This document shows, in pieces, positions 3,319 to 19,427 of a stretch of DNA of 49,140 nucleotides. Position 1 is the first letter of the stretch; each line of letters starts with the position of its first letter. This DNA is from an uncultured Bacteroidota bacterium (GTDB lineage: Bacteria > Bacteroidota > Bacteroidia > Bacteroidales > UBA12481), in assembly GCA_903851365.1 (NCBI GenBank), contig CAINOB010000114.1, forward strand, positions 1 through 49,140. The letters run 5' to 3'. The notes below the pieces were generated by a model, which saw only the letters and a program-made list of their open reading frames with translations, ran no database searches and was not told the DNA's origin. Position numbers and translations under genes: made by a program.

Positions 3319-3387
3319 TGTCAATTTTACACCAAAGCTATTCCGGCGGTACGTCAAGTTGCTCAAAGGGTTGTCAAGTTTTGTCAA
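3319..3387 (-). promoter_or_regulatory. TTGACA direct-repeat array upstream of FISUMP gene 1
   Basis: Plus-strand half-sites are TGTCAA at 3319, CGTCAA at 3352, GCTCAA at 3361, TGTCAA at 3372 and TGTCAA at 3382. Spacings are 33, 9, 11 and 10 bp, close to whole helical turns. On the coding strand they read TTGACA, TTGACG and TTGAGC. The array sits 106-175 bp upstream of the FISUMP start and just after the regulator stop. The geometry fits an OmpR/PhoB-family site; binding is inferred. Confidence 0.5.
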
Positions 3388-3394
3388 AGCAATA

Positions 3395-4093
3395 TCAAGA
3401 TTCCTGAACAATGAGTTTATAGCCCACGCCGCGAATGCTCTGGATGGAATTGCCCGGATAATCTGGTGTGCAGATCTTTTTCCGAAGATTGCCCATGTGT
3501 GTATCAATGGTTCGGGGAGAAACCACTACATCCGGCCCCCAAACGGTATCCAGAATTTCCTCGCGGGTAACCACCTGACCGGCATTTTCCATCAGCACCT
3601 TAATCAGATTAAGCTCGAGGGCGGTCATGATGAGGATTTTACATCCCAGACTGCATACAAATTTCCCAGCATCAAGTTTCAGTGGACCTACCTCAATTAC
3701 CTGTTTTGGTTTACTTATTGCCTGACCACCTGTGCGGCGCAATACCGCCTTCACGCGTGATCTCAATTCCGGGGGATTGTAAGGTTTCGTAACATAATCA
3801 TCGGCACCCAGTTCCAGGCCGATCACCTTATCGTAATCCTGACTTTTCGCAGTGAGCATGATGACAGGGGTTTGGATATCGTGACGGCGAAGCTCACGGC
3901 AGATATCCAGCCCATCCACCCCACCCGGCAGCATCAGGTCGAGCAGGATAATATCAAAGCTACCCGTGAGTCCAAAAGTCAATCCCTCAGGCCCCGAAAC
4001 TGCCGCCATTACTGCATATCCTTCAAAAGTAAAATCATCGACGATTGCCATCCGTATAGCAGGATCATCTTCAACCACTAGTATTTTCCTCAT
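3395..4093 (-). CDS. OmpR/PhoB-family response regulator (cassette 1)
   Basis: This 232-residue protein has a receiver domain with acidic pocket residues near 9-10 and the phospho-acceptor Asp52 (ILLDLMLPGG). The conserved Lys lies in VTKPYNPPELRSR. A winged-helix DNA-binding domain ends in SIRGVGYKL. The receiver has one extra residue after LMLPG compared with its two paralogues. The recognition helix reads PRTIDTHMGNLRKK, while the paralogues have R-T-[IV]-DAHIAK. The ATG at 4093 is chosen because MRKILVVEDD starts there; the frame upstream is not homologous. It overlaps the kinase 3' end by 23 bases, so the two are translationally coupled. Confidence 0.95.
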   Translation of the reverse strand: MRKILVVEDDPAIRMAIVDDFTFEGYAVMAAVSGPEGLTFGLTGSFDIILLDLMLPGGVDGLDICRELRRHDIQTPVIMLTAKSQDYDKVIGLELGADDYVTKPYNPPELRSRVKAVLRRTGGQAISKPKQVIEVGPLKLDAGKFVCSLGCKILIMTALELNLIKVLMENAGQVVTREEILDTVWGPDVVVSPRTIDTHMGNLRKKICTPDYPGNSIQSIRGVGYKLIVQES

Positions 4094-6125: not shown

Positions 6126-6199
6126 TGAGGGAAATTAGCAGAATTCCGGATCAATATGCCGAATACCGGGGGGATTTATGTCAAGGGAGACTGAGGAAA

Positions 6200-6215
6200 T
6201 GTGAAGAAATGTGAA
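6200..6215 (-). promoter_or_regulatory. TTCACA direct repeat upstream of kinase 1
   Basis: TGTGAA occurs at 6200-6205 and again at 6210-6215 on the plus strand. On the coding strand this is TTCACA twice at 10-bp spacing, 75-90 bp upstream of the GTG start. The same motif and phasing recur before kinases 2 and 3, the LytS-type gene and FISUMP gene 3. Confidence 0.5.
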
Positions 6216-6300
6216 GAAGACGAAACGCGTGACACGTGACACGGAAGACGAAGAAGAAGATCGGGGGACGAGGAAGAAGACCGAAAGACAGAAGATAGAT
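6211..6300. repeat. Degenerate heptanucleotide tract 2
   Basis: The plus strand runs from GTGACACGTGACACGGAAGAC into purine-rich GAAGAAGAAGA, GGGGGACGAGG and AAAGACAGAAGA units. It has the same composition and loose 7-base period as the other tracts and fills most of the gap between kinase 1 and the LytS-type gene. Confidence 0.8.
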
Positions 6301-6323
6301 GAAAAGATAACGGATTATAATGT

Positions 6324-6959
6324 TTAGCCCAGGCGGATGGTGACCTCGAATTCCGCAAAATGATCATCGATTTGATTTTCAACCATCTTCATCGACACCT
6401 CCCGTCCGGTTTTTAACTCATAGTCTTCCACGAGCGATTGAATCAGAACTTTACCATGCACGGATCCCGGAACCGGATCCAATTCATTTGAAAGAATTGG
6501 CGCAAGATTGCTGATCGAAACAACAGGTATGCCTGTCGTAAGGCCATTGGTTGATTTCTCATTCCATGCTTTTATGCGAATCCAACCATCAACATCCAAT
6601 TTTCTGATCCCGTGCTTTATTCCATTTTCCACAATACTGACCAAAAGCGATTTGGGGACCAATAGTGTATGGAACGATTCATCAACATCAATGTAATAAA
6701 GGAATCCTTTGCTTTTACAGATTCTTTCAATTTCCAGATAATCCCTGATTATATCCAACTCCTCAAGTAACGTTGCTTCAGTTCGGCCATTGATCAGAAT
6801 TTTTCGCAAAATCCTGGAATAGCATGATATTAATTCCATCGCGGTTTCAGGATCCTTTTCTGCTACAAATCCCTGCACCGAGTTCAGCACATTGAAAGTG
6901 AGGTGCGCATTAAAACGGGTGGTTATCAGCGAAGGAGATTCTTTCAGCAATTCGTACAT
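6324..6959 (-). CDS. Soluble LytS/YehU-type histidine kinase, orphan
   Basis: This 211-residue protein matches the His_kinase family PF06580. The phospho-acceptor block is RFNAHLTFNVLNSVQGF with His19. The linker is ELDIIRDYLEIERI, and the ATPase N-box equivalent is PKSLLVSIVENGIKHGI. The usual glycine-rich G-box is hard to see; the region reads GSVHGKVLIQSLVEDYEL, so ATP binding may be altered. There is no membrane segment or sensor domain and no LytTR regulator next door, both unusual for the family. The ATG at 6959 is 4 bases from a -7 box. TTCACA repeats upstream place it with the neighbouring cassettes. Confidence 0.85.
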   Translation of the reverse strand: MYELLKESPSLITTRFNAHLTFNVLNSVQGFVAEKDPETAMELISCYSRILRKILINGRTEATLLEELDIIRDYLEIERICKSKGFLYYIDVDESFHTLLVPKSLLVSIVENGIKHGIRKLDVDGWIRIKAWNEKSTNGLTTGIPVVSISNLAPILSNELDPVPGSVHGKVLIQSLVEDYELKTGREVSMKMVENQIDDHFAEFEVTIRLG

Positions 6960-6963
6960 ATTT

Positions 6964-6971
6964 CAAACTTA
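6964..6971 (-). promoter_or_regulatory. Bacteroidota -7 promoter box for the LytS-type gene
   Basis: The coding strand reads TAAGTTTG, a full match to TAnnTTTG, ending 4 bases before the ATG at 6959. If used, the transcript would be leaderless or nearly so. The TTCACA array at 7026-7063 lies upstream at activator distance. Confidence 0.45.
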
Positions 6972-7025
6972 ACCTGGCTTCGGAATCAAAGCTTTACCAA
7001 AAATAGCTTTCCTGTATAAGGGGTA

Positions 7026-7063
7026 TGTGAAAGTTCGATGGAGTATTGTGAAAGTTGTGTGAA
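7026..7063 (-). promoter_or_regulatory. TTCACA direct-repeat array upstream of the LytS-type gene
   Basis: TGTGAA occurs on the plus strand at 7026, 7047 and 7058, with spacings of 21 and 11 bp (two turns and one turn). On the coding strand these are TTCACA half-sites 67-104 bp upstream of the start. Three identical hexamers in helical phase within 38 bases are unlikely to be chance. Confidence 0.55.
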
Positions 7064-7107
7064 GAAGAGGTGACGGGTGACGAGTGAAGGGTGACACGGG
7101 AGAAAAG
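7061..7107. repeat. Degenerate heptanucleotide tract 3
   Basis: The plus strand reads in 7-base units GTGACGG, GTGACGA, GTGAAGG, GTGACAC, GGGAGAA. It starts within the last TTCACA half-site, so the regulatory repeats and the tract are directly joined, as also before kinases 1 and 2. Confidence 0.75.
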
Positions 7108-7143
7108 GACCAGCTAAGACGAGAAAACTAATGGTAATTTGAT

Positions 7144-9303
7144 CTAATCAAACTTGGGATAGGCGAAAATATTTAGGCCATCATTACAACCTATATATAT
7201 TCTGTTTTTATAGAATATTGGTAATGAACTTGGTGAAGCAGTCATATCAAAACGAAACCTGTTTGATCCTGTCTCGATATCGACTGCCAGGAGATTTGCT
7301 GATTTACCCTCAAAATCACCTAGAAAAAATGCCTTATGGTCAAAAATCACAGGGGACATATTACCAGCCATGGCTCTTGCAACGGTGGTTTTCCAGTTTA
7401 TATTACCTTGAATATCAAGTGAGAATATATATCCTTCTTTCAAAAAGGTGCTACCGTAAAACAGGAGTGAATTCTCCGACCTGGCTATCCTACCGGTCAT
7501 ACCTGCCCCAAACAAATAGGACCTCCCGGATATCTTACCGGAATCGGCTGAGATTGAATACAAACAAACACCAGTAGAAACGCTGTTCGGTGTGAAAAAG
7601 ACGGAACCATTAAAATAAAAGCAATCCCAGATAGAGCCTGTAGCTTCACATTTCCATAGCAACTTACCACTCTCCAGGTCCAGGGCATTAAGAACAGGCC
7701 CTTTTGTTTCTGCAGGCTCAAGGTCCAGAATTTTTATTAAAAACATTGGACAAAAGATTGTTTTCCCATCAAGGTCAGGAAATCCGAATTCCACCCCTTT
7801 CTCAGTATACACCCATTTATTTTTTCCATCAGAAACACGAATAGCAAACATGGTATCCCTGGTTGCCGTATAAAGTATTTCGTCACTAACCCTGTTAAAG
7901 ATTCCGGAATACTTACCTGATCTTTGCCACAAAACTTTACCATCAGCTTTAACCAAGGCCAGCAAACCATTGATAGTTTGGCAAAGCAAAACATCTTTAC
8001 AGGCCATATTCCTGTTCATCATAGAAATCGCATCTTTTGTAATGCATTTCCAGAGGGTATCAAAAGTTATGGCATTGATCGCAAAAACTACATTTGATTT
8101 AAAATTGGCGATATAAAGAATATCGTCATTAATCAAGAATTGCGGGGCAAACCGGGTACCCTGTGCACGACCAGGGAACTCCCATTTTTTAATCAGGTCC
8201 GGCTTGATTATTTGAACTTCAGGGAGATTTTTAGTCAGCGGTTTTTTTATGTTTTTTAATTTGGTTCGAGATATTGAATCCTGATTACCCGGTAGCGTAT
8301 TCGCCATATTGTTTTTTAAACACCGTACTGAAAATCCAGTTGTTCTATTTGCCCAGGATTCTCCCGACAAATCATCCGATTTGGCCTCCAATGACCGGTG
8401 AAAGCCTGTATAAACTTTTTCTTTAGTTCTGATGTTAACCCAACTTGTATCCATAGATGCCCAGAAATAAGAGGAATATCCAAGCTCCGTGAATCGTTTA
8501 TTTCCTTGATCTAATCGATAGCCAGCCGGCAATACTGACATTCCGGAAGAATTATCCCCATTTCCTTCCGTAAACCAATTATTGGTTGACTTCATTTTCT
8601 TCCCAACGTTTAAGCCAAGCGCCTTCTCCAAAACAGTCCATTCTTCATCCGTTGGCAAATGCCATCCATCAGGACAGATTCCCTGGTGGTTCTCGGAACT
8701 TCCATTCCATGACCGCTCCAGATATTCAGGTTCAATATCCATTGCGGTTGTCCAATCATACAGGCATCCGAATTTTTGATAATTATCTGTCGCGGCTGCC
8801 TCTGTCACATCCTCACCATCATAGTCATAAACCCAGATACCATGAATCTGGTCCTTTGGAGCATTCACCCAAGGCATATAAGCCAGGTTTTCGGCCATCC
8901 AGATCTGGTTGCCGATTTTCACCCATTTATATTTGTGCCTGTCGCGGGGGTCGGTGAATGTGTTGGCATGGTCGAGTTTATCGACGCGCGATTGAACCAG
9001 AGATATAATATCCTTTTGCTCAGGGTATTGTTCAATTACCCGGGTATAATATCCCAGAGCCTTAGCGGTACCGGCTTTTTCGCCAATCAGCCCCAGCCGG
9101 TACAGACTTTTTGCCATCAAGGCCCTGTCATCGGTTTTGGATTGCAAGATTTGTTCATACAATGATTGAGCCTTTGTCAGATTGCCATCAACCTGCTCCG
9201 CATACAAAGCCTGATAAAACATCTTCTCAGGTGAAATTTCCTGAGAAAACAGTGAAGTTCCGATGAGAACTATCAAAATCAGCAAAAAGCTTAAGCGTTT
9301 CAT
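7144..9303 (-). CDS. Secreted TPR-FISUMP protein with C-terminal PQQ-like beta-propeller (cassette 2 output)
   Basis: This 719-residue protein has a signal peptide at 1-20 and a TPR-like pair at about 25-110 (ALYAEQVDGNLTKAQSLYEQ, then ALGYYTRVIEQYP). One FISUMP domain covers about 118-330, with GNQIWMAENLAYMP, CPDGWHLPTDEEW, GMSVLPAGYR and FSVRCLKN. A charged linker follows, then PQQ-like repeats at about 370-719. The repeats show ILYIANFKSNVVFAINA, LLALVKADGKVLWQRSG, MFAIRVSDGKNKWVY, LNALDLESGKLLWK and LLAVDIETGSNRFRF. Such propellers bind partners or act as scaffolds; no enzymatic residues are evident. It lies 108 bases downstream of its regulator. Function beyond an exported envelope or surface protein is unknown. 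Confidence 0.9.
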   Translation of the reverse strand: MKRLSFLLILIVLIGTSLFSQEISPEKMFYQALYAEQVDGNLTKAQSLYEQILQSKTDDRALMAKSLYRLGLIGEKAGTAKALGYYTRVIEQYPEQKDIISLVQSRVDKLDHANTFTDPRDRHKYKWVKIGNQIWMAENLAYMPWVNAPKDQIHGIWVYDYDGEDVTEAAATDNYQKFGCLYDWTTAMDIEPEYLERSWNGSSENHQGICPDGWHLPTDEEWTVLEKALGLNVGKKMKSTNNWFTEGNGDNSSGMSVLPAGYRLDQGNKRFTELGYSSYFWASMDTSWVNIRTKEKVYTGFHRSLEAKSDDLSGESWANRTTGFSVRCLKNNMANTLPGNQDSISRTKLKNIKKPLTKNLPEVQIIKPDLIKKWEFPGRAQGTRFAPQFLINDDILYIANFKSNVVFAINAITFDTLWKCITKDAISMMNRNMACKDVLLCQTINGLLALVKADGKVLWQRSGKYSGIFNRVSDEILYTATRDTMFAIRVSDGKNKWVYTEKGVEFGFPDLDGKTIFCPMFLIKILDLEPAETKGPVLNALDLESGKLLWKCEATGSIWDCFYFNGSVFFTPNSVSTGVCLYSISADSGKISGRSYLFGAGMTGRIARSENSLLFYGSTFLKEGYIFSLDIQGNINWKTTVARAMAGNMSPVIFDHKAFFLGDFEGKSANLLAVDIETGSNRFRFDMTASPSSLPIFYKNRIYIGCNDGLNIFAYPKFD

Positions 9304-9320
9304 AAAACTAACCTATCATG

Positions 9321-9328
9321 CAAAGTTA
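9321..9328 (-). promoter_or_regulatory. Bacteroidota -7 promoter box for FISUMP gene 2
   Basis: The coding strand reads TAACTTTG (followed by C), matching TAnnTTTG, 17 bases upstream of the ATG at 9303. Only one weak TTCACG half-site is visible further up (about 9390), so unlike the other cassettes no clear direct-repeat array is seen here. Confidence 0.4.
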
Positions 9329-9411
9329 TCTCACTAATGATCGACAAGTATCAAGGTCCGATTGCGATTTGTTGGGGTTCCGTGAAATTTAAGATAATTT
9401 TATGCCGATCC

Positions 9412-10095
9412 TCACGATTCCTGAAATTTATAACCCACCCCTCTCAGGCAGACAATCCGATCCTGATCTTCAGCATTTTTAAACTTACGGCGCATTTTTG
9501 CAATGTGGGCATCAATGGTACGCGGCGTCACGTACACCTCTTTTCCCCACACCTCATTCAGAATATCATCACGCCTCAAAACCACACCCGGATGCCGCAT
9601 CAGCATGGCCATTAAATCAAATTCCAGCTGGGTCAGCTCAACAATCTCCCCGTGTAACCGGAATTCATATCTGGAAATATCAATATCAAATGGTTCCAAT
9701 TTTATCCGGTCGGCAGGTTTACCCGGATTGGATATGGTACGCCGCAGCACTGCCTTAATCCTCGATCTCAGTTCATGCGAATTAAATGGCTTAGTGATAT
9801 AATCATCGGCCCCAAGCTCCAGCCCGAGCACCTTATCGATATCCTGCGATTTTGCCGTCAGCATAATAATGGCCGTCCGGATGTTTTGGCGCCGAAGCTC
9901 CCTGCAGATTTCCAGCCCGTTCATACCGGGAAGCATCAGGTCGAGCAGGATCAGATTATGCGCCTGTTTCAAAGCCATTTCCATACCCTGATTACCATTT
10001 ACCGCAATATCAATCTCATAACCTTCCATGGCCAGATCTTCTTCCAGACTCAGTCTGATGGCCTTATCATCTTCAACAATTAGAATTTTTATCAT
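9412..10095 (-). CDS. OmpR/PhoB-family response regulator (cassette 2)
   Basis: This 227-residue protein has a receiver domain with Asp9/Asp10, phospho-acceptor Asp52 (LILLDLMLPGMNG), LTAKSQD and a KPFNSHELRSR lysine. A winged helix ends in CLRGVGYKF. The recognition helix PRTIDAHIAKMRRK is almost the same as in the cassette 3 regulator and close to PhoB. It shares an ATGA start/stop overlap with the kinase gene, so the pair is one translational unit. It is a likely candidate reader of the TTCACA repeats; that link is inference. Confidence 0.95.
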   Translation of the reverse strand: MIKILIVEDDKAIRLSLEEDLAMEGYEIDIAVNGNQGMEMALKQAHNLILLDLMLPGMNGLEICRELRRQNIRTAIIMLTAKSQDIDKVLGLELGADDYITKPFNSHELRSRIKAVLRRTISNPGKPADRIKLEPFDIDISRYEFRLHGEIVELTQLEFDLMAMLMRHPGVVLRRDDILNEVWGKEVYVTPRTIDAHIAKMRRKFKNAEDQDRIVCLRGVGYKFQES

Positions 10096-12047
10096 TTTGC
10101 AAGACTTTGATCTATTGGTAAATAAACATAAAATGAACTACCCATCCCCAGCTCACTCGACACGGTAACCCATCCCTGATGAGATTCAACAATCCTTTTT
10201 ATTAAGGTTAATCCAATCCCAGAACCTTTGATTCCTTCGTTTTGAGCATCATCAACCCGATAAAATCGTTCGAAGATCTTTTTTTGGTCCGCCGGAGCAA
10301 TTCCCCGGCCGTAGTCTTTTACCTCAATACAAATCTCTTTGTCGGTTGCGCTGAGATTTACATCGACTCTTCTGCCACCGGCAGCATATTTTCCCGCGTT
10401 ATCGAGCAGATTATATACCACCTGCCGAAGAGCGTCCTGATCTGCCATTACCTGCGGAATTGATCCGCTGACAGAAAAATTAAAGTCGAGGCCCGATTCT
10501 GCAGACCGGTTACGGTGAACATCAACCAGATTTTTAATCAGGTCGGTAGGGTCAATCTTTTTAAAATGATATTTTCTGATATCATCCTCAATTTTCGAAA
10601 AGTCCAGTATATTCTCGATCAGATGACTCAGATGATCGCATTGCTCGATCATGGAATCATAGAATTCATCTTTTTTTTCCTCAGTTCTCACGCGCCGTAG
10701 TTTCAGCAATTCCGACATGTGACGGATGGAAGTGACCGGCGATTTGAATTCGTGAGACACATTCGAAATAAAATTGGTTTTCATCCGGCTGAGGCGCAGT
10801 TCCTGGCTCAGCAGATAAATGGTAAAGATCAGTCCCATTATTAACCAGAGGACCAGTAATCCAAATACACCGGCATACAATCCTTTCCCGGATTCAAGCA
10901 ATGCCTTAAAAAAGGGTTTGGGATTGATTTGAATCTCGACTTGCCATCCGGGAAGTGGATTAGGAAACGGAAAAGGTAAAAGGGAAGTCACTCCCGGTTT
11001 GACATAATTAAATAGCACAATCCCGGAATCCTCCTTAATCTTCCAGCTGTAATGCCTCTCAGCATCAGCTGATTTGATCAGGGGTCCCAACCGATTATCA
11101 ATCATCCGGTTAAGGTCAACCAAGGCTGCCCTGATCTCTCCCGATTCAACCCTTTGGGTAACCAGCAAATCGCGGTAACCGTTCTTTGGCATATAAACCA
11201 GCTGATTACCTGGATAGGCCAGATATTCATCGGCCATCAGCAGGAATTTATTAAGATGATTGGTTCGCTGAATTGCCTGATCGAGGAGTTTGAACACAGT
11301 GTCAGCCTTCGGAATATTCACTTTCAGCTTTTGCAATTCGCTGTAAAACAGATCAAAAGTCTGAAAATTATAGGCTGATATTGGATTCAGCAGTTTAGCG
11401 GAAAAATCCTTTATTCCTGTCTTAACCTTGGCTGTATCATTAAGTGATTGATATATTTTCACTATTTCCAGTGCGGAAACCAGATTGGGCGGCAGCTGCC
11501 CGATATTTTCTGTCGGGTTAAGAAGAAGAATTTTCTGATATTCCTTCAGAGCATCGTCCAGTTTCCCTTGTTTTCGGAGTATCCGTGCCAGAGAACAGCG
11601 AGCATTAATTGCACTTGATCCCTTATCATTTCCCACGAGTTTGTTGACAAAAAAATCCTTGGCTCCTTCCAAATTATTCTCGAGAAATTCCAGTTCCCAT
11701 CCACGATCCGGACCGGCATTCAGCATTCCGTTTCCCTGATCGGTTAAAAACTTCCCCGGCAGGTAAAGAAGTTGATTTTTAACAATCCTGATATTGGAAT
11801 CACGATAGAGGACCAACGGAGAAAAAGTAGTATCGACTGACCAGTCAGCGAGTTCCTTATTGAATAATTGAAAAAAGTCCTGGGCAGCCAGATTAAGTTC
11901 CTGGCGGACCTGTTTTTCACGGAGTGCATCATCGCTTCGGATTCCGCGGTAAGCCATAAATCCCAGCACCACACCGGGAATTACCACTCCCAGTATGTAA
12001 ATAAGAATGATTCGGGTTCTTTTGGATCCGTGGTCAACCGGGTTCAT
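10092..12047 (-). CDS. Sensor histidine kinase with periplasmic TPR-like domain (cassette 2)
   Basis: This 651-residue protein has transmembrane segment 1 at about 13-32. A periplasmic region of about 365 residues includes the TPR-like CSLARILRKQGKLDDALKEY. Transmembrane segment 2 is at about 395-418. His432 lies in NVSHEFKSPVTSIRH, and the HATPase has NLLDNAGKYA, DYGRGI and GSGIGLTLI. It overlaps the regulator by 4 bases. Its N-terminal membrane segment and the following REKQVRQELNLAAQDFF resemble those of kinases 1 and 3, so all three descend from one gene. It has the shortest periplasmic part of the three. Confidence 0.94.
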   Translation of the reverse strand: MNPVDHGSKRTRIILIYILGVVIPGVVLGFMAYRGIRSDDALREKQVRQELNLAAQDFFQLFNKELADWSVDTTFSPLVLYRDSNIRIVKNQLLYLPGKFLTDQGNGMLNAGPDRGWELEFLENNLEGAKDFFVNKLVGNDKGSSAINARCSLARILRKQGKLDDALKEYQKILLLNPTENIGQLPPNLVSALEIVKIYQSLNDTAKVKTGIKDFSAKLLNPISAYNFQTFDLFYSELQKLKVNIPKADTVFKLLDQAIQRTNHLNKFLLMADEYLAYPGNQLVYMPKNGYRDLLVTQRVESGEIRAALVDLNRMIDNRLGPLIKSADAERHYSWKIKEDSGIVLFNYVKPGVTSLLPFPFPNPLPGWQVEIQINPKPFFKALLESGKGLYAGVFGLLVLWLIMGLIFTIYLLSQELRLSRMKTNFISNVSHEFKSPVTSIRHMSELLKLRRVRTEEKKDEFYDSMIEQCDHLSHLIENILDFSKIEDDIRKYHFKKIDPTDLIKNLVDVHRNRSAESGLDFNFSVSGSIPQVMADQDALRQVVYNLLDNAGKYAAGGRRVDVNLSATDKEICIEVKDYGRGIAPADQKKIFERFYRVDDAQNEGIKGSGIGLTLIKRIVESHQGWVTVSSELGMGSSFYVYLPIDQSLAK

Positions 12048-12120
12048 GCCATTAAATTACCACTAATGTTGTAAAGATTTGGCTTTTATCCAGATGAAAA
12101 ATGAAAGATCGACAGGATTG

Positions 12121-12137
12121 TGTGAAAGTTGTGTGAA
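12121..12137 (-). promoter_or_regulatory. TTCACA direct repeat upstream of kinase 2
   Basis: TGTGAA occurs at 12121-12126 and 12132-12137 on the plus strand, exactly 11 bp apart. The flanks are also alike, so the repeat unit is really TTCACACAAYY. It lies 74-90 bp upstream of the ATG at 12047, the same distance range as for kinases 1 and 3. Confidence 0.55.
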
Positions 12138-12210
12138 GAGAATCGAAACGCGTGACACGTAACATGTGACATGGAAGACGAAAAAGAAGACCGGTGGACG
12201 GAAGAAAGAG
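12138..12210. repeat. Degenerate heptanucleotide tract 4
   Basis: The plus strand runs from CGTGACACGTAACATGTGAC into GGAAGACGAAAAAGAAGACC and GGTGGACGGAAGAAAGAG. It lies between the kinase 2 control repeats and the 37-bp element copy B. The end GAAGACCGGTGGACGGAAG closely matches a stretch of tract 5, supporting a duplication of tract, element and DUF1016 start. Confidence 0.8.
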
Positions 12211-12213
12211 ATC

Positions 12214-12250
12214 ACTGTTTTTCCATTTCTGTGTTGGTTTTGCTTCTATA
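12214..12250 (+). repeat. 37-bp shared element, copy B (before the DUF1016 gene)
   Basis: It aligns gap-free with copies A (470-506) and C (13390-13426): TTTTTCCATTT near the left end and TTTTGCTTCTATA at the right. The ATG of the DUF1016 gene follows 17 bases later. The same element before a toxin-antitoxin pair and before a nuclease suggests it is tied to accessory-gene insertion or to a shared mode of expression. Confidence 0.6.
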
Positions 12251-12267
12251 CTGATAAATATAAAATC

Positions 12268-13290
12268 ATGGCAGCAACAAAGGAATATTTCGATTTTATT
12301 GGATCGGTTAAGGATCGGATCCGATCGGCACAGTATGCGGCATTAAAGGCGGTAAACAAAGAACTTGTGGGTCTTTACTGGGATATTGGAAGAATGATAT
12401 CCGAGAAACAGAAGGAGTTAGGATGGGGAAAGGCAGTCGTTAGGAATATTTCCAGCGATCTGCAATCTGAATTTCCAGGCAAGTCGGGATTCTCAGCCAG
12501 GAATTTATGGTTAATGGTAAGGTTATACACAGAATACAAGGACGATACAAAAGTGCAACCACTGGTTGCACAAATAGGATGGGCGAACAACCTTATGATT
12601 TTTTCGAAATGTCAGTCCACCGACGAGCGCAGTTTCTATATGGTTTCGTCTAAAAAATTCGGTTGGACTAAGCGGGTTTTGGAACACCAAATCGATAATA
12701 AAACTTATGAAAAGCATCTCCTTAATCAAACAAACTATGATAATCTGCCTTCCGAAAAATTCAGTGATCAGAAAGTTCTGGCAATCAAGGACCATTACAC
12801 CTTCGATTTTCTGGAACTTTCAGAGAAACACTCTGAACGCGAACTGGAGGAGGGGCTAATTCGGAATATGCAGCAATTTCTCCTGGAACTTGGAGGTGAT
12901 TTTGCTTTCCTTGGCAGCCAATATAAAATCACCGTTGGTTCTCAGGATTTTTATATCGACCTGCTACTATTTCATCGTCGTCTTCAAAGCCTGGTCGTTA
13001 TTGAATTGAAAGCCGGAGCTTTTAAACCTGAATACAAGGGAAAACTCGAATTCTATCTCAATGTTCTAAATGATACTCACCGGCTTTCATATGAAAATGA
13101 GGCAATTGGAATGATTATTTGCAAGAACAAGGACCGAATCGTTGTCGAATATGCTTTGAAGAAATCCCAAAATCCCATTGGCATTGCGAGTTACAGCACC
13201 AGTCCGGACTTACCTGAGTATTATGATAAGGCCCTACCATCTGTAAAGCAGATTGAGCGGGGGCTGGGGTTTTTGAGGAGAGACGAGTGA
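12268..13290 (+). CDS. DUF1016 / YhcG-family PD-(D/E)XK nuclease
   Basis: This 340-residue protein has the N-terminal DUF1016_N helical domain (KEYFDFIGSVKDRI, LVGLYWDIGRMI, GFSARNLWLMVRLY). The C-terminal PD-(D/E)XK nuclease fold starts near 195. Candidate metal-site residues are Asp231 (DFYIDLLLF) and Glu246/Lys248 in VVIELKAG. Length and motifs match complete family members. The family occurs near restriction-modification and defence genes; its biological role is not settled. The ATG at 12268 is chosen because MAATKEYFDF aligns with the truncated copy at 13445; the frame upstream runs through repeat DNA. The last codons and the stop lie in a heptanucleotide tract. Confidence 0.92.
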   Translation: MAATKEYFDFIGSVKDRIRSAQYAALKAVNKELVGLYWDIGRMISEKQKELGWGKAVVRNISSDLQSEFPGKSGFSARNLWLMVRLYTEYKDDTKVQPLVAQIGWANNLMIFSKCQSTDERSFYMVSSKKFGWTKRVLEHQIDNKTYEKHLLNQTNYDNLPSEKFSDQKVLAIKDHYTFDFLELSEKHSERELEEGLIRNMQQFLLELGGDFAFLGSQYKITVGSQDFYIDLLLFHRRLQSLVVIELKAGAFKPEYKGKLEFYLNVLNDTHRLSYENEAIGMIICKNKDRIVVEYALKKSQNPIGIASYSTSPDLPEYYDKALPSVKQIERGLGFLRRDE

Positions 13291-13383
13291 CAGGTGACAG
13301 GTGACGGGAAGACGGTAGAAGAAGATCGGTGGACGAAGAAGAAGACCGGAAGACGGAAGACGGAAGACCTCAGACGAAAGAAA
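13284..13383. repeat. Degenerate heptanucleotide tract 5, overlapping the DUF1016 stop codon
   Basis: GAGTGACAGGTGACAGGTGA and then GGAAGACGGAAGACGGAAGA show a clear 7-base period. The tract begins inside the last codons of the DUF1016 gene, so part of the C-terminal RRDE is encoded by repeat sequence. Confidence 0.85.
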
Positions 13384-13389
13384 AGAATC

Positions 13390-13426
13390 GCCATTTTTCT
13401 ATTTCGGGACTGCTTATGCATCTATA
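13390..13426 (+). repeat. 37-bp shared element, copy C (before the truncated DUF1016 copy)
   Basis: It aligns without gaps with copies A and B; GCCATTTTTC at the left and TGCATCTATA at the right are identical to copy A. The ATG of the DUF1016 fragment is 18 bases downstream, compared with 17 for the intact gene after copy B. This supports duplication of the whole tract-element-gene unit. Confidence 0.6.
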
Positions 13427-13444
13427 TAATCAAAAACAATTTTC

Positions 13445-13582
13445 ATGGCATCAACTAAGGAATATATGGATTTTATTGGTTCGGTCAAGGATCGTATCGG
13501 GTCGGCTCAGTATGAGGCGCTAAAGACCGAAAAGGAGATCAGGGAAATTTCTTATAAATATCCTTCCGATGCTGAAGCCTGA
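13445..13582 (+). pseudogene. Truncated 5' copy of the DUF1016 nuclease gene
   Basis: The frame from the ATG at 13445 reads MASTKEYMDFIGSVKDRI and continues GSAQYEALK, matching residues 1-27 of the DUF1016 protein at 12268. About four in five bases are identical. Similarity then fades near 13525-13535, and the frame ends at 13580-13582 after a stretch antisense to the end of the RelE-type toxin gene. The copy is offset 1177 bases from the intact start. The most likely history is tandem duplication followed by loss of the 3' part when the toxin-antitoxin module joined here. The 45-residue product is unlikely to work. Confidence 0.8.
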
Positions 13583-13805
13583 CCAGTATCATGGTATCAG
13601 TTTCAAGAAAAAGGCCAAGCCTGTAATTCCCAAGTTTTATTCTGTAAGCACATGGATGTCCTTTTAACTTTTTCAGATTGGGAATCTCAGTCATTATATT
13701 GACCGATTTCAGCAATACGATTATTTCTGATAATTTGCGGAGAGTAGATTTATTGCTGATGCACTTGATATCAGATAAGAAGGACCTTTCAAATAGAACT
13801 TTCAT
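13539..13805 (-). CDS. RelE/ParE-family toxin
   Basis: This 88-residue protein has the family pattern: an N-terminal MKVLFERSFLSDIKCI strand-helix, central KKLKGHPCAYRIKLGNYRLGL, and a C-terminal MILVRLQHRKDIYKKFP. The C-terminal RLQHRKDIYKKFP corresponds to the usual HRxxxY active-site end of RelE-like mRNA interferases. The antitoxin gene lies 3 bases upstream, giving antitoxin-first order as usual for relBE/parDE. Its last 44 bases overlap, antisense, the tail of the truncated DUF1016 frame. RelE and ParE activities cannot be told apart from sequence alone. Confidence 0.88.
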   Translation of the reverse strand: MKVLFERSFLSDIKCISNKSTLRKLSEIIVLLKSVNIMTEIPNLKKLKGHPCAYRIKLGNYRLGLFLETDTMILVRLQHRKDIYKKFP

Positions 13806-13808
13806 ATC

Positions 13809-14006
13809 CTATTGTTGGAGTGCCTCACTTATTTCCTGGTCGGAAACATAGTCACCTTTGCGATCCTGAAGCATATTCTTCAAAAGCTCAAAATCTTCCT
13901 TTTCCTCGTCATCAAGAATTTGGGCTTCATAACCAAGCTTTTGAATCAAACTGGATAAAAACTCCAGGTCTTTATCTGTCGTCGGTGTGATAATAATGGA
14001 TTTCAT
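13809..14006 (-). CDS. Small acidic antitoxin partner of the RelE/ParE toxin
   Basis: This 65-residue protein starts at the ATG at 14006 (MKSIIITPTTDKDLEFL); the frame upstream runs through repeat DNA and is discarded. It has an N-terminal beta strand, a helix (LEFLSSLIQKLGYEAQIL), an acidic stretch (DDEEKEDFELLKNML) and the C-terminal YVSDQEISEALQQ. It has no recognisable DNA-binding motif and resembles small partners of RelE toxins common in Bacteroidota. The assignment rests on size, charge and the 3-base spacing to the toxin gene. A palindrome 49 bases upstream (14055-14074) may be its operator. Confidence 0.8.
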   Translation of the reverse strand: MKSIIITPTTDKDLEFLSSLIQKLGYEAQILDDEEKEDFELLKNMLQDRKGDYVSDQEISEALQQ

Positions 14007-14054
14007 TCTATTAAGGAAACAATAAGTGTAAAGATAAGGAAAAAAAACTTGGCG

Positions 14055-14074
14055 TTCCCAGTATCTATTGGGAA
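14055..14074. promoter_or_regulatory. Inverted repeat upstream of the second toxin-antitoxin pair
   Basis: TTCCCA-GTATCTAT-TGGGAA has perfect 6-bp arms around an 8-base spacer, 49 bases upstream of the antitoxin ATG. The same TTCCC/GGGAA arms occur before higBA with a 5-base spacer. An operator role is inferred from position. Confidence 0.4.
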
Positions 14075-14133
14075 GAAGACGAGGAAGAAGACCGGGAGAC
14101 GAAAGACGAAAGACAGTAGACAGAAGAAAGACC
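14071..14133. repeat. Degenerate heptanucleotide tract 6
   Basis: The plus strand reads GGAAGAAGACGAGGAAGAAG, then ACCGGGAGACGAAAGACGAA and related purine units with 7-base drift. It fills the gap between the antitoxin start and the terminator of FISUMP gene 3. Confidence 0.75.
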
Positions 14134-14197
14134 GCAAGTTGTACTTTCCGCGGCCCTGAAATCAGGGAGGGGCCAGGGGTGGGTACAATTTTGGCGC

Positions 14198-14238
14198 ACA
14201 ACCAAAAGCCCCCACCAGTTTCATCCGGCAGGGGCTTT
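14198..14238 (-). terminator. Rho-independent terminator of FISUMP gene 3
   Basis: The stem AAAGCCCC (coding strand, pairing 14231-14238 with 14205-14212) encloses an 18-base loop and is followed on the minus strand by TTTTGGTTGT. It begins 24 bases after the FISUMP gene 3 stop. A further CCCTGA/TCAGGG hairpin lies at about 14153-14167. Confidence 0.6.
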
Positions 14239-14261
14239 CGAAATTCCATGAGTTTCGATTT

Positions 14262-16553
14262 TTAATCAATCTTCGGTAACTCGTAAATACAAAGACCATC
14301 ACTAAAACCAATATACATTTTGCCATTAAAAAAAACAGGATAAGTAACAGGGTTTCCTTCAAATTTAACAGAATACACTTTGGAACCAGTTCCTCCGTCG
14401 ACAGCATTTAATGTGGTGCTCTGGAGACTGTGTGTCTTATCGATGGTACCTGTAAGAAAGAACAATTTCCCGTCGTGGAGAATTGGATTATTATTGGTAC
14501 TCCCCATAATTCTTCCAAATTTATGCCTCCATTGAATCTCTCCTACGGTGCTCAGTTTAACAATCTCGTCAGAGTCGGAAAGAAATTGACTTATGGGAAT
14601 AAATAATGCCTTGTCATCTGACCATATCTTTGATTCAGGACCCATCACCGACATATATGTTTTCCATACCTTCTTACCGGTTTTGCAATCGACAGCTATA
14701 ATATAAGGACCAATAACCACATCAGTCAAATGAATTAAAACTGAATTGTCCGAAACAGAACATTGCCATAGATTTCCGAAAGATTTAAACTCCCAAAGCT
14801 TTTCGCCCGAATTGGAATTAAAAGCCATTAATACAGGCTGTTGTATTCTCACTTCCTCTTCGACTTTTCCAGTTTGACGAATCTTTGCTGGATAATTGAT
14901 TGGACAAAAAAGTGACCCGTCTTTAAAGTTAATTTTTCCATAACCCACTCCTTTTTCAATATGAATCCAATTATTCAATCCATTGCTTGCATTCATTGAG
15001 AAAAGAGTATCCTGATTAGAAGTATAGAGGGTCTCTCCATCAGCGATACTAAACACCAGACTAAATGGTCCCTTTCTTTGCCATACCTTCGTGCCATTCG
15101 CCTTATTTAATCCAACCAGGTTATTCTTAACCTGACAAATTACTACATCATGAGTTACTTGAATACCTTTATATGGTACAAATTCTTCATTTGCTTGATA
15201 AGTCCAGATTGTATCAAGATCAGGAAGTCTTAAAGCAAAGAGTTGTCTTGACTTAAAGTCTGAAAAATAAATAACACTGTCTTCGATTAGGAAGGCAGGT
15301 CCACCTATAATTAGCTTTTCCTTCGGAGGCAATTTGATTTTCCCAAGGAGCTTTGGCATGATTATAATGGAACTCTCAACTTTTCCTATAATAATTTTAA
15401 CTTTTGAAGGCTCAATACTTTTTGAAATATTACCACCCGCTAGTCTTAATGGAGTTTCATTATCATCCTTTAAGCATCTGACTGATACACCATAGGCTCT
15501 ATTAAGCCAGGCAGCCCTTTCAATATCATAAGTCTGGTTGTAAAAATATCTCTCAAAAGCAGTGTAATCCTGATTGAAAAATTTTGGATTTCTATCCAAT
15601 AATGCACTATCAGAGGCGGTCCAGAAACCAGTGTTATAGCCGAGATTTTCAAAATTTTTCCAAGGGAAATATTGTGCAAATATCCGCCGGCCTCCAGAGG
15701 GTATTATATTAAACCCCGAACTATTGTCGCCATTGCCTTCCTGAAACCATCCGGATGACGATTTTAAATATTTCCCCACCGGCACATAATCTTTTGATTG
15801 TGGATAATAGCTTTCATAAGCAGACCGTGTATCTTCCATAACATCCGCCAGTGAATCGGACATTCCCAAACTCTTCTCCAATGTTTTCCACTCCCCATCG
15901 GTCGGCAGATGCCAGCCGGGAGGGCAAATGCCCTGATGCTTTTCGGAATTACCGTTCCAGGGCTGTTCTAGATATTTGGTATCGATATCCATAGCCATCG
16001 CCCAGTCATACAGGCAACCATATTTCTGATAATTGTCGGTTGCCTTGGCTTCGGCAACGTCCTCGCCATCATAATCATACACCCAGATGCCGTCTTCCTG
16101 CTTTTTCGGCGGATTCACATGCGGCATGTACGCCAGGTTTTCGGCCATCCAGATCTGGCTGCCGATTTTTACCCAGCGATATTTATGGCCGTCGCGGGGA
16201 TCAATAAAGGTGTTGGCATCCTTCAGTTTGGCGATGCGACCGCGGGCAAGCTCGGCGAGATCAGACTGGTCTGGGTATTTTTCGATAACATCGGAATAAT
16301 AGCCAATGGCCTTGTCGGAGCCTTTCTTTTCATACGTCAAACCAATATGATAAAGGCATTTAGCAGCAAGAATGCGGTCGCTCTTGTTGACTTTAAACAG
16401 GTCCTGATAGATATTCAGGGCTTTGTCGAGGTCGCCGGTCACCTCCTCCGCCACCACGCCTTCGTAAAAGCGGGTATTGGCAATGGATTCCTGAGCCGTA
16501 ACATCCCACGTTTCCAGCATCAGGAAAACGAGTAAAATGGTTATGTTTTTCAT
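14262..16553 (-). CDS. Secreted TPR-FISUMP protein with C-terminal PQQ-like beta-propeller (cassette 3 output)
   Basis: This 763-residue protein has a signal peptide at 1-20 and a TPR-like pair at about 25-110 (EEVTGDLDKALNIYQDLF, then AIGYYSDVIEKYPDQ). One long FISUMP domain covers about 118-365, with GSQIWMAENLAYMP, CPPGWHLPTDGEW, FNIIPSGGRR and VSVRCLKD. PQQ-like repeats run from about 395 to 763, for example LVGLNKANGTKVWQR, LMAFNSNSGEKLWEF and IIAVDCKTGKKVWK. It is a paralogue of the cassette 2 output; the FISUMP part carries an extra loop of about 30 residues. It has the clearest control region of the set, with a three-site TTCACA array and a -7-like box upstream, and its own terminator. 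Confidence 0.9.
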   Translation of the reverse strand: MKNITILLVFLMLETWDVTAQESIANTRFYEGVVAEEVTGDLDKALNIYQDLFKVNKSDRILAAKCLYHIGLTYEKKGSDKAIGYYSDVIEKYPDQSDLAELARGRIAKLKDANTFIDPRDGHKYRWVKIGSQIWMAENLAYMPHVNPPKKQEDGIWVYDYDGEDVAEAKATDNYQKYGCLYDWAMAMDIDTKYLEQPWNGNSEKHQGICPPGWHLPTDGEWKTLEKSLGMSDSLADVMEDTRSAYESYYPQSKDYVPVGKYLKSSSGWFQEGNGDNSSGFNIIPSGGRRIFAQYFPWKNFENLGYNTGFWTASDSALLDRNPKFFNQDYTAFERYFYNQTYDIERAAWLNRAYGVSVRCLKDDNETPLRLAGGNISKSIEPSKVKIIIGKVESSIIIMPKLLGKIKLPPKEKLIIGGPAFLIEDSVIYFSDFKSRQLFALRLPDLDTIWTYQANEEFVPYKGIQVTHDVVICQVKNNLVGLNKANGTKVWQRKGPFSLVFSIADGETLYTSNQDTLFSMNASNGLNNWIHIEKGVGYGKINFKDGSLFCPINYPAKIRQTGKVEEEVRIQQPVLMAFNSNSGEKLWEFKSFGNLWQCSVSDNSVLIHLTDVVIGPYIIAVDCKTGKKVWKTYMSVMGPESKIWSDDKALFIPISQFLSDSDEIVKLSTVGEIQWRHKFGRIMGSTNNNPILHDGKLFFLTGTIDKTHSLQSTTLNAVDGGTGSKVYSVKFEGNPVTYPVFFNGKMYIGFSDGLCIYELPKID

Positions 16554-16569
16554 AGCGTTGATTTTACTC

Positions 16570-16635
16570 TAAAATTATCACCGCCTGCCGACCCGGGTTT
16601 GAAGCCCGTGTGAACCTTTGTGAAACATTTGTGAA
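16570..16635 (-). promoter_or_regulatory. FISUMP gene 3 promoter: TTCACA array plus -7-like box
   Basis: TGTGAA occurs on the plus strand at 16609, 16619 and 16630, spaced 10 and 11 bp; on the coding strand these are three TTCACA half-sites. Downstream at 16570-16577 the coding strand reads TAATTTTA, one base from TAnnTTTG. The array would therefore sit roughly 40-65 bases before the transcription start, the usual place for a class of PhoB-like activators. The start codon is at 16553. Confidence 0.55.
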
Positions 16636-16639
16636 TGCA

Positions 16640-17326
16640 TCAAATCGATACAAATTTATATCCCACCCCCCGCATGCACTTGATCCAGCTCTGTTCCTCA
16701 CTGTCGCCCATCTTACGGCGCAGCTTGGCAATATGGGCATCCACGGTGCGCGATGTCACATAAACATCCTTCCCCCACACCTCTGTCAACAGCCTGTCGC
16801 GGGTAATCACCTCGCCCGGATGCAGCATAAGTATTCTCAAAATCTCAAACTCGATGGCAGTGAGCACAATTTCTTCTCCATTGTTCTGAAAACGGTATTT
16901 ACCGGTATCCATCTGATAGGGCCCGGCCTTGATTACCTGATTGAACGACTTCTGATCAACTTGCATAGTACGTCGGAGAACTGCTTTTATCCGTGCCCTT
17001 AATTCGTGGGAGTGGAAGGGTTTGGTTATGTAATCATCGGCCCCCAGCTCCAATCCGATCACCTTGTCGAAATCCTGACTCTTGGCGGTGAGCATAATAA
17101 TTGGTGTACCGATATTTTTCCGGCGCAGCTCCTTGCAAACATCCAGACCATCCATCCCGGGCAGCATCAGGTCGAGCAAAATCAGATCGAGACCGGGTTT
17201 CATTGCCTTTTCCAATCCAGATAGGCCATTCACGGCAATTTCAACTTCATAGCCCTCGGCCCGAAGGTCGTCTTCCAATCCCATTCGAATGGCGCGGTCG
17301 TCTTCAATGATCAGAATCTTTATCAT
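16640..17326 (-). CDS. OmpR/PhoB-family response regulator (cassette 3)
   Basis: This 228-residue protein has a receiver with IIEDDRAIR, phospho-acceptor Asp52 (LILLDLMLPGMDG), LTAKSQD and TKPFHSHELRAR. A winged helix follows, with recognition helix SRTVDAHIAKLRRK and a C-terminal CMRGVGYKF. The ATG at 17326 is chosen because MIKILIIEDD starts there, leaving a 23-base overlap with the kinase gene like that in cassette 1. It and the cassette 2 regulator share nearly the same recognition helix and so probably read similar sites. The TTCACA array begins 5 bases after its stop. Confidence 0.95.
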   Translation of the reverse strand: MIKILIIEDDRAIRMGLEDDLRAEGYEVEIAVNGLSGLEKAMKPGLDLILLDLMLPGMDGLDVCKELRRKNIGTPIIMLTAKSQDFDKVIGLELGADDYITKPFHSHELRARIKAVLRRTMQVDQKSFNQVIKAGPYQMDTGKYRFQNNGEEIVLTAIEFEILRILMLHPGEVITRDRLLTEVWGKDVYVTSRTVDAHIAKLRRKMGDSEEQSWIKCMRGVGYKFVSI

Positions 17327-19355
17327 GATATTGGCTTTGGTCGATCGGTAAATGCACTGTAAAAACACTTCCCTTCCCTATTTCACTCTCCACATGAATC
17401 TGGCCGTGATGGGCCTCCACTATCCGTTTCACGATGGTCAGACCGATGCCGCTCCCCTTGATTCCCTCCGTCCGCAGCCTGTCGCCCCGGTAAAAACGCT
17501 CAAAAATCCTTGGCAATTCCTTCTCCGGAATCCCTAACCCAAAATCCCTCACACCCACCACCACAAACCCAACTTCTTCCTTATTTCTTTTATCTTCCAC
17601 CTTTCCTTCCTGCCTTTCTGCCTTTCTGCCCTCTTGCCCTAAGTATAAGAAAATCTCTATCCTTCTGCTCCCTCCTGAGTACTTATACGCATTATCTATC
17701 AGATTATAAAACACCTGCAACATGGCATCCTTATCGATATACAACATCGGCGGCTTAATCTTAGCCTCATATACCAGCTCAAAATCCGTCTCGGTAATCC
17801 GGCTGCGGTAGAGCCGTATCAGGTCGGTAAGGAGGGCATCTGGATTATGCCATTCGAACCGGTAGTTCTTTATATCTTCCTCTATCTTAGAGAAATCCAG
17901 TATATTCTCGATCAGGTGCCCCAGATGGTCGCACTGCTCCAGCATCGATTGCAGGTACTCTTCTTTTCTTGGCTCCGAACTGATCCTTTTCAGGTACATA
18001 ATCTCGGTCATGTGCCGGATAGACGTGAGCGGTGTCTTGAATTCATGCGACACATTGGAGATGAAATCGGATTTCATCTTGCTCAGCTTCATCTCCTGAT
18101 TTAACGTATACATCATGAAAACGAGTCCTGCAATCATCAGAAGTGTAATAAAGGCAAAAACGAAAACGAACAGGCCCTGACTGGTGCCGACCAGAATTTG
18201 CCAGCCGGATTGAGGTTTTGGCGAGATCGAAATTTTCCAGGGTGGATAATTTACCGGAAAGGTCACCTCCAACGGAGCCACCGTAGTATCAGCTGGCATT
18301 GGAAAGAGGTATTGGCCATACTCTGTCAGGATATTCCAGTGATAAGCGTTTTCGTTATCCAGCTCTTTAAAAATTGCCGGTAAGCGAAATTGTGCAAACG
18401 CTTTCAGATCGATAACCTTTCCAATCTGCATCCCCGATGGTTGATTTTCCTGGATGAAAAGAGCCGGAAACTTTTCAGAATCCAGATATTTTCGCTTGCC
18501 AGATTCACCATTGAAAAGACTCCCGCTGTTCTCAATTATGCCGATGAGGAAATCTGTTTTCGCCTTCTCATTCCGGAGATGAGACATTAAACTACTGTCG
18601 GGTTGTGGGTTGCATCTAGAAATATTCTGGCTGAGAAATTCAAAATACGACCGTTCAAAAGCTACTGTTGGTTTTAAAAGAAAAAGAACCAGCCTGTTCG
18701 CCCACGCTTCAGCAGCCTTTCCATTGCCAGTTTCACCGTTTATCCTGATAAGCTCAGTCATAGCCAAAGCCGATGCCGGCAGATGATCGCCAATGACGGT
18801 ATTACCGTAATTTTCAGCGATTCTTTGATATATCGCGACGGCGCTATCTTTTTGATTTTTCTGATAATATATTCTGGCCAAACCGTTGAGCGCCTTTACT
18901 GCCAGTATGCTATCGGCACTTTCACGAAAAACCCGATAGTAAAGATCCGATGCTTTTGCCAGGTCTTTATCCCTGAATTCGCAGTCGGTTGCCTGTTTAA
19001 ATATATCAGACTCCGGTTCAGGCGGCGGTGTTTTCAGGTAACCATCGGGAAAATAAATCAGGTGATTATGGATAAGCTGCGGGGTTTGACCGGTTTGTCT
19101 GGAGAATATGAGAAAAGATAGAGAATCGGGCAAATTTGTGGTTTCAATATCCAGCCGGCGAAAGAAATCCTGTGCCAGTATCTGAATTTCGTTGCGGGTT
19201 TGCTTTTCACGTAACGCCTGATCATTCCGGATTCCCCTGAAAGCAAGGAAACCAAGGATCAGTCCGGGGAGTACAACCCCCAGCGAATAATAGAGAATAA
19301 TTCTTTTGCGTTTAGACTCGGGATAGGTTCTTTTCACTTTACCGGTTTGGGCCAT
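17304..19355 (-). CDS. Sensor histidine kinase with periplasmic TPR-like domain and a repeat insertion in the ATPase domain (cassette 3)
   Basis: This 683-residue protein has transmembrane segment 1 at about 16-36. The periplasmic part has TPR-like helices (LAKASDLYYRVF, LNGLARIYYQKNQKDSAVAIY). Transmembrane segment 2 is at about 390-415. His437 lies in NVSHEFKTPLTSIRH, and the HATPase has NLIDNAYKYS, DFGLGI and GSGIGLTIV. Between the strand after the N-box and the G1 motif it carries about 22 extra residues, rich in Glu, Lys, Arg, Gln and Gly, that kinases 1 and 2 lack; they are encoded by a short tandem repeat (17573-17639). The frame is intact. Whether it still hydrolyses ATP normally is open, since the loop may simply protrude. 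Confidence 0.93.
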   Translation of the reverse strand: MAQTGKVKRTYPESKRKRIILYYSLGVVLPGLILGFLAFRGIRNDQALREKQTRNEIQILAQDFFRRLDIETTNLPDSLSFLIFSRQTGQTPQLIHNHLIYFPDGYLKTPPPEPESDIFKQATDCEFRDKDLAKASDLYYRVFRESADSILAVKALNGLARIYYQKNQKDSAVAIYQRIAENYGNTVIGDHLPASALAMTELIRINGETGNGKAAEAWANRLVLFLLKPTVAFERSYFEFLSQNISRCNPQPDSSLMSHLRNEKAKTDFLIGIIENSGSLFNGESGKRKYLDSEKFPALFIQENQPSGMQIGKVIDLKAFAQFRLPAIFKELDNENAYHWNILTEYGQYLFPMPADTTVAPLEVTFPVNYPPWKISISPKPQSGWQILVGTSQGLFVFVFAFITLLMIAGLVFMMYTLNQEMKLSKMKSDFISNVSHEFKTPLTSIRHMTEIMYLKRISSEPRKEEYLQSMLEQCDHLGHLIENILDFSKIEEDIKNYRFEWHNPDALLTDLIRLYRSRITETDFELVYEAKIKPPMLYIDKDAMLQVFYNLIDNAYKYSGGSRRIEIFLYLGQEGRKAERQEGKVEDKRNKEEVGFVVVGVRDFGLGIPEKELPRIFERFYRGDRLRTEGIKGSGIGLTIVKRIVEAHHGQIHVESEIGKGSVFTVHLPIDQSQYHDKDSDH
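17573..17639. repeat. Short tandem repeat inserted in frame in kinase 3
   Basis: The coding strand contains GGGCAGAAAGGCAGAAAGGC followed by AGGAAGG, an 8-base unit GGCAGAAA, then purine-rich GGTGGAAGATAAAAG. It resembles the intergenic purine tracts in composition and drift. It encodes about 22 residues missing from the paralogous kinases. Confidence 0.75.
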
Positions 19356-19410
19356 TTGCAGTAAAGATCAGAATTCTACGTCATTGATTTGTCAACGCAA
19401 ATTGCTGAAT

Positions 19411-19427
19411 TGTGAAAATTGTGTGAA
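19411..19427 (-). promoter_or_regulatory. TTCACA direct repeat upstream of kinase 3
   Basis: TGTGAA occurs at 19411-19416 and 19422-19427 on the plus strand, 11 bp apart. On the coding strand this is TTCACACAATT followed by TTCACAATTC, 56-72 bp upstream of the ATG at 19355. Confidence 0.55.

Follow-up and report, generated by a model that had tools for sequence, protein, structure and literature searches.

TTNACA direct-repeat arrays upstream of kinase-regulator-FISUMP cassettes in an uncultured Bacteroidota bacterium: candidate binding sites of the cassettes' own OmpR/PhoB-type regulators

The window analyzed here is a stretch of 49,140 nucleotides (assembly GCA_903851365.1, contig CAINOB010000114.1, positions 1 to 49,140) from an uncultured Bacteroidota bacterium of the Bacteroidales lineage UBA12481, whose genome (G000) comprises 5.23 Mb in 130 contigs and is 99% complete. 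It carries three minus-strand cassettes, each in the order HisKA/HATPase_c kinase, Response_reg + Trans_reg_C regulator and Fib_succ_major protein, and arrays of direct TTNACA repeats are located upstream of their genes. The first cassette consists of the kinase HK1 (4071-6125), the regulator RR1 (3395-4093) and the output gene FISUMP1 (1333-3213), which has two Fib_succ_major stretches. The second comprises HK2 (10092-12047), RR2 (9412-10095) and FISUMP2 (7144-9303), and the third HK3 (17304-19355), RR3 (16640-17326) and FISUMP3 (14262-16553); both of these output proteins combine Fib_succ_major with a PQQ-type beta-propeller. The starts of RR1 and RR3 are taken at 4093 and 17326, in open reading frames (ORFs) that are open to 4177 and 17368, respectively. 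HisKA and HATPase_c (Pfam) are found in all three kinases, with weak TPR matches below the Pfam cut-offs in HK2 and HK3 and none in HK1; judged by eye, the outer sensor part of the sensor kinase is flanked by two membrane segments. Response_reg and Trans_reg_C score above the Pfam cut-off in RR1, RR2 and RR3, in agreement with the initial annotation, which had assigned a PhoB/PhoP-family regulator to each cassette. A LytS-like short kinase core (6324-6959, minus strand; Pfam His_kinase) precedes HK1, and another precedes a cassette kinase in genome G001.

The initial annotation had listed 12 copies of TTCACA, 56-104 bp upstream of start codons. All 12 positions are correct, every copy lies on the minus (coding) strand, and the distances agree with those measured again. 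Since a CRP-type site (TGTGA-N6-TCACA) is an inverted repeat, the like orientation of 12/12 copies led to rejection of a CRP-like site. The spacings of 10, 11 and 21 bp also hold as figures, although they are steps of one array and not alternative pitches. Upstream of the LytS-like gene the array (6998-7063) has TTCACA at 7058-7063, 7047-7052 and 7026-7031 (offsets 0/11/32), followed by a -7 box, TATTTTTG (6998-7005), which matches TAnnTTTG at 6/6 positions. The kinase promoters own a third half-site that had not been listed. Before HK1 (array at 6179-6215) TTCACA at 6210-6215 and 6200-6205 is followed by TTGACA at 6179-6184 (0/10/31); before HK3 (19362-19427) TTCACA at 19422-19427 and 19411-19416 is followed by TTGACA at 19390-19395 and the -7-like GATCTTTA (19362-19369, 4/6); and before HK2 (12072-12137) TTCACA at 12132-12137 and 12121-12126 is followed by a degenerate TTCATT at 12100-12105 and the -7-like AATCTTTA (12072-12079, 4/6). 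The FISUMP3 array (16570-16635) contains TTCACA at 16630-16635, 16619-16624 and 16609-16614, TTCAAA at 16598-16603 (0/11/21/32) and the -7 box TAATTTTA (16570-16577, 5/6). A further array precedes FISUMP1 (3333-3387), with TTGACA at 3382-3387 and 3372-3377, TTGACG at 3352-3357 and the -7 box TAGCTTTG (3333-3340, 6/6). FISUMP2 has a weak array (9321-9386), consisting of TTCACG at 9381-9386 (-58), TTGATA at 9349-9354 (-26) and the -7 box TAACTTTG (9321-9328, 6/6). All of these arrays are on the minus strand. The -7 boxes are scored as matches out of 6 to TAnnTTTG, with 4/6 or better termed -7-like; TAnnTTTG is the -7 consensus of the Bacteroidota sigma-ABfr (PMC7366714).

Taken singly, TTCACA hexamers show no enrichment in the window (26 observed vs. 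32.8 expected); TTCACAN{3,6}TTCACA occurs 6 times vs. 0.03 expected, a count reached by 0/100 shuffles. The genome-wide scan proposed in the initial annotation (TTCACAN{4,5}TTCACA, 5.23 Mb) returns nine matches vs. none for the reversed pattern, and seven of the nine are upstream of cassette genes. Six are those of the window itself, and the seventh (C64:119820), on another contig, lies upstream of a fourth kinase paralogue, the sole other kinase of the family in this genome (four matches at 1e-40). Both remaining pairs, C112:129 (within a CACAAAG-type repeat) and C64:83597, are outside ORFs of >=90 aa. Equal abundance of the pair inside genes, the outcome against which the initial annotation had set its proposal, is not seen in this genome, where 0/9 exact pairs fall within such ORFs. 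If G or C is permitted at base 3, 12 matches are obtained vs. 2 reversed, eight of them at cassettes, including the TTGACA-N4-TTGACA at 3372-3387 before FISUMP1 that had been missed. TTTCACA-N4-TTTCACA with two mismatches yields 72 matches, left unsorted, vs. 27 reversed. In a search for a wider regulon the 0/11/32 pattern with one mismatch matches 23 times vs. 17 reversed, and such matches are therefore mostly background; the exact pattern matches six times, at five cassette sites and at C20:78657, a TTAACA array flanked on one side by an ORF next to another regulator and on the other by an ORF whose start resembles a signal peptide. Among the 35 window ORFs of >=200 aa, which serve as a control, a 10/10 pair lies within 140 bp upstream of five, all of them cassette or LytS-like genes, and one other ORF scores 9.

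The comparison across relatives rests on 35 promoter regions (15 upstream of kinases, 17 regulator-output gaps and 3 upstream of LytS-like genes), seven of which are supplied by the window. The output-gene regions of G188 and G279 are clipped at an upstream start codon and scored as misses; the promoters of G010 are near-copies of those of the window, and the LytS-like array of G005 turned up through the motif search itself, so that neither counts as independent evidence. A perfect TTNACA pair (pitch 10 or 11) is present on the coding strand in 20/35 regions (6/7 in the window and 14/28 elsewhere) vs. 1/35 on the reverse strand, in keeping with the OmpR/PhoB family, a trait of which is a head-to-tail order of half-sites, pitched at 10-11 bp, before target genes. 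Kinase and LytS-like promoters share three half-sites at 0/11/32. In 12 of the 14 such promoters having a pair of >=9/10, a third half-site (>=4/5) is found exactly 21 bp past the second, while any other offset from 7 to 45 reaches at most 3/14; a -7-like box starts 47 bp past the second half-site, again in 12/14. When aligned on the second half-site, all 14 agree in TTNA (+21 to +24), A (+48) and T (+51, +52). The half-sites average 1.6 bits per column, the first two having been selected by the alignment itself, compared with 1.2 for the -7 columns and 0.44 for the remainder.

The output-gene regions display the better -7 boxes, with TAnnTTTG at 6/6 in 11/17 and 5/6 in five more (that of G279 is off the expected place); those of the kinase genes are poorer, mostly 4/6. 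A half-site is located at -47 from the -7 box in 14/17 output-gene regions, the exceptions being FISUMP2, G188 and G279, and others are found at -58, -37 and -26. A single grammar, -58/-47/(-37)/-26 from the -7 box, thus fits kinase and output genes alike. One half-site lies at about the place of the -33 TTTG of sigma-ABfr promoters, where the analysis takes half-site and possible -33 element together.

The array layout recurs in other Bacteroidales families, in which the regulators are about 50-60% identical, and the kinase-regulator-output order is found again in relatives. Four of 80 related loci were used, namely L055 (uncultured Bacteroidetes, Loclat bin), L056 (Bacteroidales fen_980), L057 (Bacteroidales UBA2198) and L058 (Bacteroidetes B13_G6); the other 76, which match mainly the conserved kinase core, were dropped. 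Fifteen regulator matches (1e-44) included eight already in the set and six that were followed; L198 was excluded because its preceding ORF does not look like a kinase. Among six more distant kinases, picked by regulator similarity and read once the layout was known, five have a TTNAC pair 80-90 bp upstream (scores of 8 to 10 out of 10), and four of these pairs are accompanied by a third element at +21. The LytS-like gene of G005 (L182:1087-1823) is preceded by a full array (TTCACA, TTCACA, TTCACC).

These observations argue that the arrays are, with good probability, binding sites of the cassettes' own OmpR/PhoB-type regulators, which would control their own operon and the output gene, each switch protein most likely acting on its own cassette. 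As the evidence throughout is sequence comparison, binding of the regulators to the arrays is a prediction. The sensor kinase would phosphorylate the regulator of its cassette, whose subunits may then line up in head-to-tail order along TTNACA half-sites spaced by roughly one turn of the helix, at -58/-47/(-37)/-26 as counted from the first base of the -7 box. PhoB recruits RNA polymerase from its bound site, and a regulator bound at the last half-site would most likely do the same; this is proposed because that half-site sits near the expected place of the -33 element. The expected outcome is that the operon of kinase and regulator is under feedback and the output gene is controlled separately, with the LytS-like gene as a further target. 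Activation is suggested by the geometry of the array and by the poor -7 boxes of the kinase genes. A variant that shares part of the probability of this proposal, and is itself unlikely, is that the cassette regulators bind the arrays and repress by covering the -33 region, to which the array extends and where a bound protein could block polymerase. The array, however, leaves about 20 bp between its end and the -7 box, an arrangement that suits an activator, as do, indirectly, the 4/6 boxes of the kinase genes.

The initial annotation had predicted both autoregulation and cross-talk. Autoregulation by the cassette regulators is supported by the comparison, since recurrence of the array before related cassettes in several families argues for it; cross-talk is not borne out in the same way. 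The half-site varies mainly at base 3, being TTCACA at RR2/RR3-type cassettes and more often TTGACA or TTAACA at the others. Five regulators with A196 and K200 in RR2 numbering (RR2, RR3, G001a, G011 and G010a) are adjacent to half-sites with C at base 3 in 25/28 cases, compared with 17/61 (G 26, A 15, T 3) for 16 regulators in which the first of these positions is T or S and the second N or S; G185b and G001g, with other residue combinations, are excluded from the sums. Fisher's test, counted on half-sites, gives p 4e-8, although the residue change occurs once on the tree, leaving one usable independent pair, and the covariation is therefore a lead and not a proof. RR2 can be aligned with PhoB and further regulators of the OmpR/PhoB type, its DNA-binding domain matching 1gxp over 95 residues on both sides. 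Counted along this match, with the first residue of the 1gxp chain assumed to be 124, A196 and K200 of RR2 correspond to V197 and R201 of PhoB. R201 forms a bond to guanine, and V197 is in contact with thymines (PMC3973317). Matched by eye through the Arg-Arg pair, K200 also corresponds to Tyr220 of Mycobacterium tuberculosis PhoP, which contacts C5 of TCACAGC (PMC4832192), and C5 equals base 3 of the TTNACA half-site. The two differing recognition-helix residues thus probably contact bases. As a lead, the covariation favors the cassette regulators as readers of the arrays and would speak against free cross-talk between RR1 and RR2/RR3. The joint difference between RR1-type and RR2/RR3-type cassettes in base 3 and two helix residues hints at partial insulation, and on the base-3 reading the TTCACA array of the LytS-like gene would belong to RR2 or RR3. 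It is tentatively suggested, at somewhat less than even chances, that paralogous cassettes are partly insulated by a one-base shift (TTCACA/TTGACA/TTAACA) together with the two helix residues (A196/K200 vs. T/N), and that a defined cross-control would be retained by the LytS-like gene and by mixed arrays (HK1).

Several results weigh against binding by the cassettes' own regulators. On pair score alone 14/35 regions fail to beat their own shuffles at 0.05, including that of FISUMP2, whose score of 7/10 is no better than shuffles. Across the 11 other family genomes, exact TTCACA pairs are mostly background: 5 of the 20 stand before cassette or LytS-like genes, 9 fall within ORFs and 6 are intergenic at other places, and the reversed pattern matches 12 times summed over all 12 family genomes. 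The distant kinase of G006 has no array upstream. G005 (92% complete) has its LytS-like array, yet neither a cassette regulator (1e-44) nor a cassette kinase (1e-75) is found in it. This last case also fits a different reader, an OmpR-type or global regulator acting on the arrays while the cassette regulators act elsewhere. Beyond the 4 cassette regulators, the genome encodes at least 14 others of OmpR type (18 matches in all at 1e-25), and the array at C20:78657 shows that TTNACA arrays exist away from cassettes. Such a reader is nevertheless improbable, given that the exact pair is almost confined to cassettes in this genome and that base 3 tracks the class of the adjacent regulator, albeit as a single change. 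Moreover, in the fetched flanks of the 14 other OmpR-type regulator loci a score of 9/10 is not reached in the 140 bp preceding any ORF of >=180 aa, although perfect TTNACA pairs occur elsewhere, on one strand, in 3 of the 14 whole loci. TTAACA-type repeats are also observed upstream of two paralogous small ORFs (L231 and L232; C110:34660 and 35674); these and the array at C20:78657 (L212) are possibly regulons of other OmpR-type regulators.

GTCAC-rich stretches lie directly upstream of several arrays (about 6221-6245, 7066-7097 and 12146-12172, and in the C64 kinase promoter). That the repeats have no function, being relics of promoters copied between duplicated cassettes or part of a decaying simple repeat, would suit the paralogy of the cassettes and these stretches, but is very improbable, as the third half-site and the -7 columns are fixed while the rest of the promoter varies, the layout recurs in families with diverged regulators, and HK3 and FISUMP3 lack such a stretch, on which ground an origin from it was rejected as the full cause.

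The cassette family is uncommon. Counting the genome of the window, a cassette kinase is present in 5/12 genomes of its own family (1e-75) and in at least 5/393 genomes of the order sample (1e-80), the latter a lower bound because only the three best candidates per genome were scored; it is also found in 2/5 genomes of the family of G188. In G279 (L180:8148-10189) the kinase is split over two reading frames of 378 and 309 aa, either broken or an assembly error. Six output proteins from outside the family of the window have PD40-type propellers and TPR_6 matches, the latter above the cut-off in 4/6, and Fib_succ_major is absent from all six. A gene for a YhcG/DUF1016 PDDEXK nuclease adjoins cassettes or arrays in 5/9 own-family loci and in L168 (window, 12166-13290; L173, L175, L177, L182, L184), and is found in none of L179-L181, L056-L058 and L206-L211. 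The start of the window copy adjoins the HK2 array, divergent from HK2, and the genome has two further copies. Between this gene and FISUMP3 lie two small ORFs (13539-13805 and 13809-14249); the 88-aa product has a weak ParE_toxin match below the Pfam cut-off and the 146-aa product has no Pfam match.

Searches of open-licence papers, judged by titles and the opening lines of abstracts, turned up no account of the cassette family or of its array. In Escherichia coli the PhoB half-site of the pho box is TGTCA and the targets are phosphate genes. By contrast, the half-site is TTNACA here, TAnnTTTG takes the place of the sigma-70 -10 box, and the cassettes' own genes encode kinases, regulators and FISUMP/propeller proteins. 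The likeness to PhoB lies in head-to-tail binding, and, by the count given above, the helix positions that distinguish the cassette classes coincide with V197 and R201 of PhoB, both of which contact bases (PMC3973317). M. tuberculosis PhoP binds TCACAGC-N4-TCACAGC, a direct repeat of 7-bp motifs with 11-bp pitch, as a tandem head-to-tail dimer (PMC4832192). The pitch and the TCACA core are common to both, whereas the strict 4-bp spacer and paired sites of that system differ from the 11/21 and 11/10/11 arrays, as do the recognition-helix residues, the sigma factor and the targets (PMC4832192). Riemerella anatipestifer PhoP, also from Bacteroidota, has a similar DAP-seq motif, in which TTTAACA is most conserved, and binds upstream of its own operon in electrophoretic mobility shift assays (EMSA; PMC9603813). 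It differs in having A at base 3 of the half-site instead of C or G and 583 candidate targets instead of a handful, and the available part of that report describes neither a direct-repeat array nor a fixed distance to the -7 box (PMC9603813). It is thus already known that regulators of the OmpR/PhoB type bind direct repeats (PMC4832192) and that a PhoP from Bacteroidota binds upstream of its own operon (PMC9603813), and the promoter grammar described here is unusually clear within a known kind of mechanism.

The arrays give an uncharacterized sensor family, and the FISUMP and beta-propeller proteins that adjoin it, a concrete regulatory circuit with predictions at the level of single bases. 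The fixed distance between array and -7 box offers a model of how an OmpR/PhoB-type regulator works with a Bacteroidota sigma factor. The series of paralogues may reveal how related regulators in one cell stay apart and, if the proposed insulation is true, would offer a naturally occurring series from which changes in the specificity of such regulators can be read.

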